Shown here piece after piece: positions 2,420-44,967 of a stretch of 58,999 nt of DNA. Source of the stretch: a virus; IMG/VR virus record IMGVR_UViG_3300010966_000080, positions 1 through 58,999 of that record; one strand, 5' to 3'. A program made the position numbers and the translations under genes. Position 1 is the stretch's first letter. Each line of letters begins with the position of its first letter. The notes under the pieces were generated by a model. That model saw nothing but the letters and a program-made list of their open reading frames with translations. It did no database searches and was not told the origin of the DNA.

Positions 2420-2899
2420 ATGACCGCCAAGAGTACCCGCAAGCCGCGCGCGATGAAGTGCCGGACACCTGAGATCGCCACGCGCATCATCGAGGGGCTG
2501 TGTGACGGCGTGACCATGCGCGCGCTGTGTCGGCAGGAGGGCATGCCGAACTGGCGCACGGTGTACGATTGGCTCGAGCAAGACCCCGACTTCGCCGCAC
2601 AGGTCGCCCGCGCTCGGGATTTGGGCTACGAGGCCCTCGCCGAGGACATCTTCGACATCGCGGACAACACCAAGGCGATCAGCGAGCACGTGCAGGTCTC
2701 CAAGCTGCGCATCGACACGCGCCTCAAGCTGCTGGCCTGCTGGAGCCCCAAGCGCTACGGCCCGAAGCAGACGCTCGACGTCGGGAACAAGGACGGCGAG
2801 AAGCTGCAGGTAGAAAACAGCGCGGACAACATGGCCACCGCAGCGGCCTTCGCCGTGGCCGCCGCCACTGCGATGCGTGACGCCAAGCGCGGCGAGTGA
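2420..2899 (+). CDS. terS: Terminase small subunit
   Basis: 159 aa. The N-terminal half contains a helix-turn-helix of the terminase small-subunit type (IATRIIEGLCDG, then MPNWRTVYDWLEQDP), a charged linker follows, and the C-terminus is Ala-rich. It would recognise phage DNA and present it to the large subunit. The ATG at 2420 was chosen because GGAGCAGGCAGAGCC precedes it; the frame is open further upstream. Its TGA overlaps the GTG start of the large subunit, implying translational coupling. Confidence 0.85.
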   Translation: MTAKSTRKPRAMKCRTPEIATRIIEGLCDGVTMRALCRQEGMPNWRTVYDWLEQDPDFAAQVARARDLGYEALAEDIFDIADNTKAISEHVQVSKLRIDTRLKLLACWSPKRYGPKQTLDVGNKDGEKLQVENSADNMATAAAFAVAAATAMRDAKRGE

Positions 2900-5178
2900 A
2901 CCTCAGCGACCATGAAGCACTGAAGCGCCAGCTCGCGGCGCTGCCGCTGGAGGTGCTCGCCTACGTCGACTGGCAGCGCCGGTGGACTGAGACCGCACGC
3001 CCGCCGCAGATCCCGCCCAAGACGGACTGGAGCGAGTGCGGGTACCTCGCCGGGCGGGGGTTCGGGAAGACACGCGTCGGGGCTGAGTGGATCACCCGCG
3101 CGGGTTACGAAGACCCGTCCGGCTTCGACAGTTGCGTCATCGCGCCGACCTATCAGGACGTTAAGATCACGTGCTTTGAGGGCGAGAGCGGGATCCTGTC
3201 CGTCCTGCCGCCGGAGCTACTGGTAGAACACAACAAGACGGACATGGTCATCCGCCTGCGCAACATCGCGGGCGGGGTCAGCACGATCCGTGGCTTCACC
3301 GCCGAGAAGCCGGAGCGACTGCGCGGCCCGCAGCACACGCGAGCGTGGTGTTTTGTCGCCGGGACGCTGGTGGCCACACCGCAAGGCGACGTGCCGATTG
3401 AAACGCTGCGGCCCGGAGACGTTGTGCTCACCCGCAAAGGCGCGCGGCGCGTCTCCGCCAACTCTTGTCGCGAGGCAGAGGTCGGCAGCGTAAAGTTTTC
3501 CACTGGTGCCGTTCTGCTTGGCACGACGGACCATCCCGTGTACACACCGGCTGGGTGGACGGACTTGTCCCGTCTGCGTGTCGGAGACGAAGTATGTGCG
3601 ATAGCTGTGTGGAATGGGGTGGCAAACGGTGGCATCGCTACCGGAACGGGTATTACGAGCGAACTGACAAGTCCGTCACGCCGAAGCGGACTGTCAGGCT
3701 TCATCGAGTTATCTGGGAGAGCGCGAACGGCCATATCCCAGATGGTTGGCAAGTTCACCACCGTGACGAGGACGTTGGGCACAACGCTCTTGCCAACCTT
3801 GAGTGCATCCCGGCTGGCGAGCATCGCCGCATCCATCTGTCGAGCAAACCCATCCCTAAGCCTGACTGGGAGCGGAAGCCGCTTGTCGAGTGCAATTGCG
3901 CCGATTGCGGCACGGCGATCCAACGCAAGCGACCCGGCCCGCAGCCCGTTTGCTCCAAGTGCCAGTGCAAGCGTGCTGAAGCTAGGCGCAAGCGCACCAG
4001 TGTTTGCGCGAACTGCGGCGCGCACTTCCAATCCCGCGCCGGAAACTTCTGCAGCCAGCGTTGCGTCAACTTGGCAACCGCAGGGGCTACAACCCGTGTA
4101 TTGCCTCAAGGTCGAGGGCGAGCCTGAGTACTTCGCCAACGGCATTCTCGTACACAACTGCGACGAGCTGGCCGCGTGGCAGTACGATCAGGACACGTGG
4201 GACATGGCCATGATGGGCATGCGCCTCGGCGAGCGCCCGCAGGTGCTGTGGACGACGACGCCCAAGCCCAAGGAGATGATCCGCAAGCTGAGCGCGCCGA
4301 AGGCGGGGCGCGTCATCATTCGCGGCTCGACCTTCGACAACCGCGCCAACCTGCCGCAGAGCTTCTTCGACCAGCTCGAGCAGTACGAGGGCACCACCCT
4401 CGGTCGCCAAGAGATCTACGGCGAGCTCATCGACCCGGAAGAGAGCGGCATCGTCAAGCGCAGCCAATTCAGGCTGTGGCCCGCCGCGCACCCGCTGCCG
4501 AAGTTCGAGTTCATCGTCATGAGCCTCGACACCGCCTTCACCGAGAAGACCTACGACAAGAAGTCCGGCGACAGCGACAGCACGGCCTGCGTGGTCATGG
4601 GCGTCTTCTTCCACGAGAAGCGCTTCAATGCCATGGTGCTCGACTGCTGGGAGGACCAGCTCGGCATGCCCGCCCTGATCCGGCGCGTGCGTAAGGAAAT
4701 GAACACGCCCTACGGCGACGATGACGACGTGGCGTTGATCAAGCCGCTGTTCGGCTCGAGCAAGCCGCTGACCAGTGGCCACAAGCCTGACGTCCTGCTG
4801 ATCGAGGACAAGGGCAGCGGCATCAGCCTGCGCCAGATGCTCGAGGCCGAGGGCATCGACGCCTACGCGTACAATCCCGGCCGCGCCGACAAGCTGACCC
4901 GCCTGCACATGGTCACGCCCGCACTGTCGCGCAAGCTCGTGTGGCTGCCCGAGAGCGACAAACACCCCGGTCGACCGCGCAACTGGATCGAGCCGATGCT
5001 GGCGCAACTCTGCGCGTTCACCGGTCCGGGGAGCATCAAGCACGACGACTACGTCGACGCCTTTGCGCAGGCGCTCAGGCTCATGATGGACAAACGCTGG
5101 CTTGATCCTGTAAAAGCCAAAAAAGACGAACGCGACACCCCGCCACCCAAGGTGGTGGTCAACCCGTACACGCAGTAG
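2896..5178 (+). CDS. terL: Terminase large subunit interrupted by an intein
   Basis: 760 codons; about 490 aa after removing a 270-aa intein, normal for TerL. The N-extein has Walker A GRGFGKT at residues 53-59. The intein starts at Cys152, just after RAW, and ends at Asn421. The C-extein resumes with CDELAAW, so splicing rebuilds the Walker B region AWCDEL. The nuclease domain follows: MSLDTAFTEKTYD, then IEDKGSG and finally DDYVDAFAQALR, with the acidic residues typical of the RNase H-like fold. The start is GTG at 2896 (GTGA overlap with terS). Without splicing the ATPase core would be split, so activity should depend on the intein. Confidence 0.95.
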   Translation: MNLSDHEALKRQLAALPLEVLAYVDWQRRWTETARPPQIPPKTDWSECGYLAGRGFGKTRVGAEWITRAGYEDPSGFDSCVIAPTYQDVKITCFEGESGILSVLPPELLVEHNKTDMVIRLRNIAGGVSTIRGFTAEKPERLRGPQHTRAWCFVAGTLVATPQGDVPIETLRPGDVVLTRKGARRVSANSCREAEVGSVKFSTGAVLLGTTDHPVYTPAGWTDLSRLRVGDEVCAIAVWNGVANGGIATGTGITSELTSPSRRSGLSGFIELSGRARTAISQMVGKFTTVTRTLGTTLLPTLSASRLASIAASICRANPSLSLTGSGSRLSSAIAPIAARRSNASDPARSPFAPSASASVLKLGASAPVFARTAARTSNPAPETSAASVASTWQPQGLQPVYCLKVEGEPEYFANGILVHNCDELAAWQYDQDTWDMAMMGMRLGERPQVLWTTTPKPKEMIRKLSAPKAGRVIIRGSTFDNRANLPQSFFDQLEQYEGTTLGRQEIYGELIDPEESGIVKRSQFRLWPAAHPLPKFEFIVMSLDTAFTEKTYDKKSGDSDSTACVVMGVFFHEKRFNAMVLDCWEDQLGMPALIRRVRKEMNTPYGDDDDVALIKPLFGSSKPLTSGHKPDVLLIEDKGSGISLRQMLEAEGIDAYAYNPGRADKLTRLHMVTPALSRKLVWLPESDKHPGRPRNWIEPMLAQLCAFTGPGSIKHDDYVDAFAQALRLMMDKRWLDPVKAKKDERDTPPPKVVVNPYTQ
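3349..4158 (+). other. Intein in TerL (splicing domain, C1 to N270)
   Basis: Block A is CFVAGTLVATPQGD with Cys1. Block B is GTTDHPVYTPAGW with the T-x-x-H motif. Block F is VYCLKVEGEPEYFANG, and block G is ILVHN followed by Cys+1. All standard class 1 splicing residues are present. Between blocks B and F (about 3600-4080) the terminase frame encodes a featureless Ala/Ser/Arg-rich stretch, because another frame there encodes an HNH endonuclease. The stretch stays open, so splicing should still be possible. Confidence 0.9.
3594..4127 (+). CDS. HNH homing endonuclease nested out of frame in the intein
   Basis: 177 aa in a different frame from the terminase. ATG at 3594 has its own Shine-Dalgarno sequence (TCGGAGACGAAGT). 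The N-terminal part carries KRTVRLHRVIWE and then the HNH core: WQVHHRDEDVGHNALANLE and HRRIHL. The C-terminal part has zinc-binding Cys pairs (CADC, CSKC, CANC and FCSQRC). The stop falls at 4127, inside block F of the intein, so both frames are coding there. Homing endonucleases in inteins are normally fused in frame; here it appears to be made as a separate protein, presumably to spread the intein. Frameshift errors are the alternative, but both frames are uninterrupted and sensible at both ends. Confidence 0.85.
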   Translation: MCDSCVEWGGKRWHRYRNGYYERTDKSVTPKRTVRLHRVIWESANGHIPDGWQVHHRDEDVGHNALANLECIPAGEHRRIHLSSKPIPKPDWERKPLVECNCADCGTAIQRKRPGPQPVCSKCQCKRAEARRKRTSVCANCGAHFQSRAGNFCSQRCVNLATAGATTRVLPQGRGRA

Positions 5179-44166: not shown

Positions 44167-44449
44167 GCCCCTTTCTCACCAATTCGACGATTTCTTCGAT
44201 CTCTTCGACTGTCCGCACGATAAACACGGGGAACTGCGCCTCGCGCATGCGCTCGATCTCGCGCTGCTGGTGGCCGCTCAGCCGATCCCCGTCCGCCTTG
44301 ATCTCGACGAAGGCGGCGCGCGGCCACTCCCACCAAATGAAGCAGTCAGGGCAGCCCCGGCGGCCCTCCCAGCGGACCTTGCGGTATTGGCCACCACTGC
44401 CCTGCACGAGGCGCTTCAACCGGTCCTGTAGCTTGCCTGCGGGGGTCAT
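44141..44449 (-). CDS. VRR-NUC domain nuclease
   Basis: 102 aa. QYRKVRWEGRRGCPDCFIWW, then AAFVEIKADGDRLSGHQQRE and FPVFIVRTVEEIEEIV fit stand-alone VRR-NUC nucleases (G-x-PD...E-x-K...Q). The conserved Asp of CPDC, EIK and the Gln of HQQRE are present. Such proteins cut branched DNA and pair with helicases in phage replication modules. The start overlaps the upstream HNH gene stop. Confidence 0.88.
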   Translation of the reverse strand: MTPAGKLQDRLKRLVQGSGGQYRKVRWEGRRGCPDCFIWWEWPRAAFVEIKADGDRLSGHQQREIERMREAQFPVFIVRTVEEIEEIVELVRKGLATPDCIG

Positions 44450-44967
44450 AGCAGCCTCGCAAACTCTTTGGCGTACCGCCTCGCGCCCTCGGCGTAGGCT
44501 GCGGCGGCCTCCTCGGTGGTGTCGTAGTGGCCGAGAAAAACCCCTCTACGGTTGTGGCTTATCGTTGCTCGCCACCGGCGGGCGGCTTTATCCCAGCATA
44601 CGCCCTTGAAACCGGATTTATTTCTTCGGGAAAGCTTGGCGTTGTACTGATTTTGCTTATTCGTCGCCAATCTGAGATTCGCCCAAGCGTTGTTGTGGGC
44701 GTTACCATCTCGGTGGTCGACATCACCCTCGGGCCAACATCCGGTAACAAAGAGCCAAGCAAGCCGATGGAGCTTATAATGCCTCCCCCCGATTTTTACC
44801 GACCGGCACCTCGGCGAGTTGTTACCGGCCTCGGATCCCGCGTATACAGCGTTCCAAGTGCTGCAGGCACGGTCCGAGGAAAAATGGCTTCGGGGGCGAC
44901 GGTGCCAAGTAAACACACCTGTCTCCGCGTCATAGGTCAAGCAAGTGCTGGCATATTCTAAGTCCAC
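44446..44967 (-). CDS. HNH endonuclease with AP2 domain (homing endonuclease)
   Basis: 173 aa. HNH core: YKLHRLAWLFVTGCWPEGDV, then DHRDGNAHNNAWANLRLAT. A DNA-binding AP2-like C-terminus follows: SGFKGVCWDKAARRWRATIS, then FLGHYDTTEEAAAAYAEGAR. This is a typical free-standing homing endonuclease, inserted between DNA polymerase and VRR-NUC genes. Its stop overlaps the VRR-NUC start. Base composition looks lower in GC than its surroundings, consistent with transfer. Confidence 0.88.
   Translation of the reverse strand: MDLEYASTCLTYDAETGVFTWHRRPRSHFSSDRACSTWNAVYAGSEAGNNSPRCRSVKIGGRHYKLHRLAWLFVTGCWPEGDVDHRDGNAHNNAWANLRLATNKQNQYNAKLSRRNKSGFKGVCWDKAARRWRATISHNRRGVFLGHYDTTEEAAAAYAEGARRYAKEFARLL

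Follow-up and report, generated by a model that had tools for sequence, protein, structure and literature searches.

The endonucleases of inteins are described as domains nested in frame within the intein, and the life cycle of inteins is usually argued from that arrangement. The large terminase subunit (TerL) gene of IMG/VR virus record IMGVR_UViG_3300010966_000080 raises the question of whether an intein can carry its homing endonuclease as a separate gene that overlaps it in another reading frame. The window, which is the whole stretch of DNA analysed here (58,999 nucleotides), contained TerL between the genes for TerS (phrog_1482, E 2e-35) and portal (phrog_1216, E 1e-17), in the order TerS, TerL, portal. 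Elsewhere in the window, a 169-aa protein with repeated GDA-V-VSGDARVYG-like units is encoded at 193-702 on the minus strand; its matches are to PHROGs without an assigned function (phrog_7964, E 1e-48), and it is probably a beta-helix. The TerL gene itself is divided as follows.

2896-5178, plus strand: TerL open reading frame, 760 aa, 760 codons without an internal stop.
2896-3348, plus strand: TerL N-extein, 151 aa, with Pfam Terminase_6N and PHROG TerL matches.
3349-4158, plus strand: intein, 270 aa, from Cys1 to a penultimate His and a terminal Asn, with Cys as the +1 residue (Hint_2, E 1e-11; intein_Cterm, E 5e-6).
3349-3591, plus strand: N-terminal half of Hint with blocks A and B; its TTDH motif lies at about 3523-3534 (alignment A2; HMM E 7e-37; pLDDT about 95).
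3595-4080, plus strand: intein-frame reading of the overlap, an open low-complexity linker (pLDDT about 30; pN/pS 1.08; stop avoidance).
4081-4161, plus strand: Hint C-terminal half, block F at about 4093-4137, block G GILVHN, then the +1 Cys (HMM E 4e-19; alignment A2).
4159-5178, plus strand: TerL C-extein, beginning with CDELAAW of Walker B (Terminase_6C match; alignment to phage GB2A).

The N-extein ends in QHTRAW, directly before the acidic residues of Walker B, and the joined TerL flanks align around Walker B with the intein-free TerL of Caulobacter phage GB2A, which represents the empty site. The insertion point is a conserved catalytic motif for which an intein-free allele exists, and TerL without the intein has a computed length of 490 aa. 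Splicing blocks A, B, F, and G are all present (Cys1, TxxH, penultimate His, Asn, and +1 Cys), and the intein residues are conserved across 22 relatives (alignment A2). The sequence-only reading had placed a complete set of these blocks in the TerL frame at 3349-4158, with which both the coordinates and the Hint_2 and intein_Cterm matches agree. In the AlphaFold model, both Hint halves form the Hint horseshoe fold at a pLDDT of about 95, and Foldseek matched this model to the solved structures of the Mtu RecA, Ssp DnaB, and Mxe GyrA inteins (E 5e-7). The same reading had described the terminase frame across the overlap as open and of low complexity; this holds, and the stretch is in addition predicted to be a disordered linker within the confident Hint fold (pLDDT about 30 vs about 95). 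In a canonical large intein, the endonuclease is a domain read in the intein frame and located between blocks B and F; the HNH endonuclease of the window is encoded in the -1 frame.

3594-4127, plus strand: gene resembling those of HNH homing endonucleases, in the -1 frame with respect to TerL and the intein; it encodes 177 aa, from an ATG to a TGA (HNH_3, E 2e-12; phrog_15471, E 7e-20).
3583-3586, plus strand: Shine-Dalgarno-like GGAG, 7 nt before the HNH ATG, within the conserved Hint GD motif.
3699-3836, plus strand: HNH catalytic core, invariant H37, H55-H56, and H77 (alignment A1).
3897-4064, plus strand: two Cys4 zinc-ribbon-like motifs, C102/C105/C120/C123 and C138/C141/C153/C157 (alignment A1).

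The overlap of the HNH gene with the intein on the same strand is about 530 nt long, and its stop codon (TGA, 4125-4127) falls within block F. A full HNH gene in another frame, with zinc fingers, its own ATG and Shine-Dalgarno sequence, and a stop inside block F, had been claimed from the letters of the window, and every one of these elements was found. Both Cys4 motifs are kept in most family members (alignment A1). The AlphaFold model of the HNH protein reached a pLDDT of 88.5, and its top Foldseek match was I-HmuI, with a probability of 1.00 yet a weak E-value (4e-3). I-HmuI is an intron endonuclease. GC3 was 0.68 in the HNH frame (3594-4124), 0.61 in the intein frame of the same stretch, and 0.90 in the TerL exteins, a drop that is consistent with a foreign origin or with a double coding constraint. 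A second, free-standing HNH-like ORF of 173 aa lies at 44446-44967 on the minus strand (family HMM E 2e-6) and apparently bears a C-terminal AP2-like stretch.

Phage group I introns often carry HNH genes. The insert could in principle be such an intron, removed as RNA and bearing the HNH gene, as the fold of I-HmuI might lead one to expect. We consider this highly improbable: no Rfam intron match and no group I ribozyme core were found in 2800-4700, the Hint splicing residues and fold are complete, and the frame of the insert is open throughout the relatives.

As the window is a metagenomic viral contig, sequencing or assembly indels could have shifted what is in truth an in-frame HNH domain. 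Relatives were drawn from IMG/VR, GTDB genomes, and named phages with HNH and intein queries; the HNH alignment (A1) was too diverse to serve as a query for the collection scans. In IMG/VR, these queries yielded TerL inteins bearing the same HNH, in the -1 register in each case. An alignment scan gave at least 551 relatives; with the best 80 of these retained, 107 of the 110 Hint pairs at that stage matched HNH, all in the -1 frame. Hint-only queries and a GTDB genome scan were added to lessen the bias of the queries. The resulting 205 unique related inteins comprised 158 with HNH in the -1 frame and four that match HNH in the +1 frame, the remainder being mini-inteins or carriers of other nucleases. 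Relatives both with and without the HNH frame, which the sequence-only reading had proposed to look for, are at hand; HNH in the intein frame, which it had named as evidence against itself, occurred in none of the 205 unique related inteins from IMG/VR, GTDB genomes, and named phages. The scans did pick up in-frame LAGLIDADG controls (L127); they were seeded on the Hint clade of the window, and the lack of in-frame nucleases is a statement on that clade.

The -1 HNH intein was also present in contigs of cultured bacteria (Beijerinckia mobilis, Frankia sp. AgB32, and Bacteroides mediterraneensis in GTDB), in the isolate phages Tetrasphaera TJE1 and Acinetobacter Highwayman, where terL is annotated as one long gene, and in a further phage record, Rhodobacteraceae phage MD07. 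Across many assemblies, cultured genomes, and isolate phages, more than 150 unique inteins share this register, which leads us to reject sequencing error, an artefact that the earlier reading had itself set out to exclude. The flanking Hint halves are moreover in frame with each other, which leaves indels a practically negligible chance.

An open intein frame could also have arisen by chance. For the HNH protein, the number of chance stops is 3 to 4 times lower in the -1 register (4.5 vs 14.4 with uniform codons). For the window sequence alone, 1.1 to 2.1 intein-frame stops were expected, with a probability of none of 0.21 or 0.06; this is not significant, and the argument against chance thus rests on the family. 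Over 141 divergent copies, no intein-frame stop was seen, against 271 expected from shuffled synonymous HNH codons or 469 from extein codon usage, while the third frame had 1854 stops against 1956 or 1669 expected; the copies are related by ancestry, and the summed probabilities count them as separate. Of the 156 Hint-HNH-Hint triples collected without any open-frame filter, 155 were free of stops in the intein frame. The sole triple with a stop, from a Methanimicrococcus MAG (L110:3001-3960), is possibly a decayed copy or an error.

Substitutions in 16 independent pairs fell mostly on HNH third positions (827, vs 481 and 351 at the other two). For these pairs, pN/pS came to 0.33 when the HNH frame was read and to 1.08 when the same bases were read in the intein frame; the part of Hint outside the overlap gave 0.35. 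Counting in overlapping frames is biased, because synonymous changes in HNH are mostly replacements in the intein frame, though the contrast is large. It indicates that HNH is selected as a protein and that the intein frame within the overlap is selected mainly to stay open; the linker shows no amino-acid constraint beyond that. These values bear on two further explanations. HNH could be a decayed remnant, with only the intein of importance; four relatives (L017, L022, L041, and L053) have lost HNH and keep a mini-intein. However, the HNH of the window is full-length with invariant catalytic and zinc residues, and together with its low pN/pS this makes decay highly improbable as well. Alternatively, the product of the intein frame may simply be tolerated within TerL without splicing, as in the ShiLan insertions, which share the theme of an out-of-frame HNH (PMC11855218). 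ShiLan has no splicing domain, whereas the one in the window is complete and under selection, and an unspliced insert would interrupt the Walker B catalytic motif; we regard this explanation as very unlikely. The models and the sequence comparisons support the reading of the element as a putatively splicing-competent mini-intein around a separately encoded, out-of-frame HNH endonuclease.

How the HNH protein is started is the next question. Programmed -1 ribosomal frameshifting could produce it fused to the N-extein of TerL and the N-terminal half of Hint, in agreement with the -1 register throughout the family and with an HNH frame that in the window is open upstream of the ATG back to 3402. 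In 49 of 141 copies, however, a stop in the HNH frame lies within five codons before the start, leaving no room for a fusion (within 15 codons in 79 of 141), and in L010 it lies one codon ahead of the ATG. Such stops near the start favor independent initiation over a frameshift fusion. Within the clade of the window, both the start codon and its Shine-Dalgarno sequence are kept: the HNH start is at one Hint position, preceded by a purine-rich core of GGAG, GGGG, or GAGG. The Gly codon of the Hint GD motif in the window is GGA, which is used in 0 of 34 cases in the TerL exteins, and every Gly-bearing member of the clade has GGA or GGG at this codon, vs 34% for GGA and GGG together in the exteins. 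Starts are less clear outside this clade: in 16 of 141 copies, a start codon is missing around the expected position, and of the 125 starts that were chosen, 61 have no recognisable Shine-Dalgarno sequence. The 64 of 125 that have one in this wider set (vs about 17% at control start codons) are an inflated count, because starts with such a sequence were preferred when choosing. Given also that other inteins use the +1 register, frameshifting is unlikely, and internal initiation is the preferred reading.

The -1 inteins occupy several sites in TerL, namely Walker B (xxW|CDEL), positions that precede it by a few codons, and sites toward the C-terminus, among them SPDR|CDAxxW, presumed from the sequence to be the nuclease active site. 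Another host of the -1 HNH intein is the portal gene. Three contigs (L009:6580-7341, L010:2557-3351, and L011:2127-2921) carry two -1-HNH inteins each, one in TerL and one further downstream. The degenerate mini-inteins L017, L022, and L041 retain only the tail of HNH, still in the -1 register, which is what a homing cycle of gain and loss predicts. The distances of Hint and HNH are correlated (Mantel rho 0.27; 0 of 300 permutations), and thus Hint and HNH have for the most part moved jointly, though some exchange has occurred. The distribution is patchy and homing-like. The sequence-only reading had proposed that an HNH gene invaded a mini-intein out of frame. Its layout is borne out by conservation, frame-specific selection, and structure models, but the invasion was not an event of this phage; it is ancestral to a widespread family that spans several TerL sites and other genes.

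The -1 register is not universal, as groups of DUF559 and HNH nucleases in the +1 frame show. A +1-frame ORF of 236-250 codons is present in eighteen related inteins (L220:2501-3370 and 17 loci like it); those whose host was tested lie in an SNF2-type helicase. The tested +1 ORFs match DUF559 (E 9e-7 to 1e-11), the intein frame matches Hint only, and pN/pS in this group was 0.42 in the nuclease frame and 0.69 in the intein frame. DUF559-like +1 loci were also observed at L241 and in named phages (L283, L284, L285, and L288). The +1 layout occurs in the helicases of Corynebacterium phi673, Vibrio CP-T1, Vibrio 1.088.O, and Pseudomonas MR14; the annotation of CP-T1 and phi673 shows one long helicase only. 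Four other inteins (L210, L253, L279, and L205) have a longer HNH (PF01844) with zinc ribbons in the +1 frame, a layout also found in the TerL of Gordonia Clown (L282), where it is unannotated, and of Synechococcus S-EIVl (L286). Since these other nucleases use the +1 frame, the out-of-frame layout appears to have arisen more than once, that is, at least twice. We suggest tentatively, with a little less than even confidence, that TerL, portal, and helicase genes of phages host a large undescribed intein class, in which the nuclease is translated separately from within the overlap and which has at least two independent origins (-1 HNH, and +1 DUF559 or other HNH).

Inteins of the Synechocystis GyrB type, reportedly described by Dalgaard et al. 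(1997) and Gorbalenya (1998), combine HNH with Hint as does the intein of the window, but have HNH as an in-frame domain. Dassa et al. (2009) reportedly described fractured genes in which split inteins occur together with a Vsr-like endonuclease that stands free; the endonuclease there is a separate protein alongside the intein, as here, but intein and host gene are split, whereas in the window the frames overlap and the host gene is continuous.

The closest published case is the ShiLan domain of phage methylases (Arsenault, Gosselin and Gogarten 2025, PMC11855218), in which HNH is inserted out of frame without a splicing domain; an out-of-frame HNH is also found in the Applejack methylase (PMC12613952). 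Both ShiLan and the intein of the window are insertions in a phage gene that are open in the host frame, encode a zinc-finger HNH endonuclease in another frame, and have a patchy, homing-like distribution. ShiLan differs in its DNA methylase host, GTG start, and lack of a Hint domain and of a recognisable Shine-Dalgarno sequence; in the window, a complete intein encloses HNH and the start has a Shine-Dalgarno sequence. Mycobacteriophage TerL inteins in the ATPase domain, including Walker B (TerL1-e), were shown to splice, and two of their endonucleases cleave intein-free alleles in vitro (Kelley et al. 2016, PMC5050341). They resemble the intein of the window in their location, but their endonucleases, in the two cases tested, are LAGLIDADG domains that lie in frame between block B and block F. 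PMC11855218 cites Gosselin, Arsenault and Gogarten (bioRxiv 10.1101/2025.01.02.630785) on the point that actinobacteriophages often have overlapping frames, and that preprint on non-canonical actinobacteriophage inteins may include the same layout, e.g., in the TerL of Gordonia phage Clown. In the literature searched, which was that outside this preprint, no account of an intein with an out-of-frame endonuclease was found.

Taken together, the locus very probably represents a mobile mini-intein of the class-1 type in Walker B of TerL, predicted to splice around an overprinted, separately initiated HNH homing gene in the -1 frame, with HNH translation, cleavage, and homing as predicted activities. 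The HNH gene occupies the usual position of endonuclease insertion in the Hint fold. Ribosomes translating TerL would traverse it in the intein frame and produce an unstructured linker, around which Hint would fold before splicing itself out to give the 490-aa TerL. Other ribosomes would initiate at the internal ATG at 3594, using the Shine-Dalgarno sequence embedded in the conserved Hint motif, and would release a free 177-aa HNH protein with zinc ribbons that may cut intein-free TerL genes and thereby lead to homing. Selection preserves both the HNH protein sequence and a stop-free intein frame. It is plausible that endonuclease dosage is in this way uncoupled from TerL dosage.

These results indicate that a homing nuclease can join an intein and yet stay outside the polypeptide that is spliced, such that the DNA is shared and the protein is not. 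Genome annotation would probably overlook such nucleases, since the reading frame of the host gene continues uninterrupted across them; the family explains long low-complexity inteins in annotated phages and adds many unannotated endonucleases. It also provides a well-sampled case of long same-strand overlapping genes, and raises the testable question of whether the endonuclease is expressed and regulated separately from the host protein.
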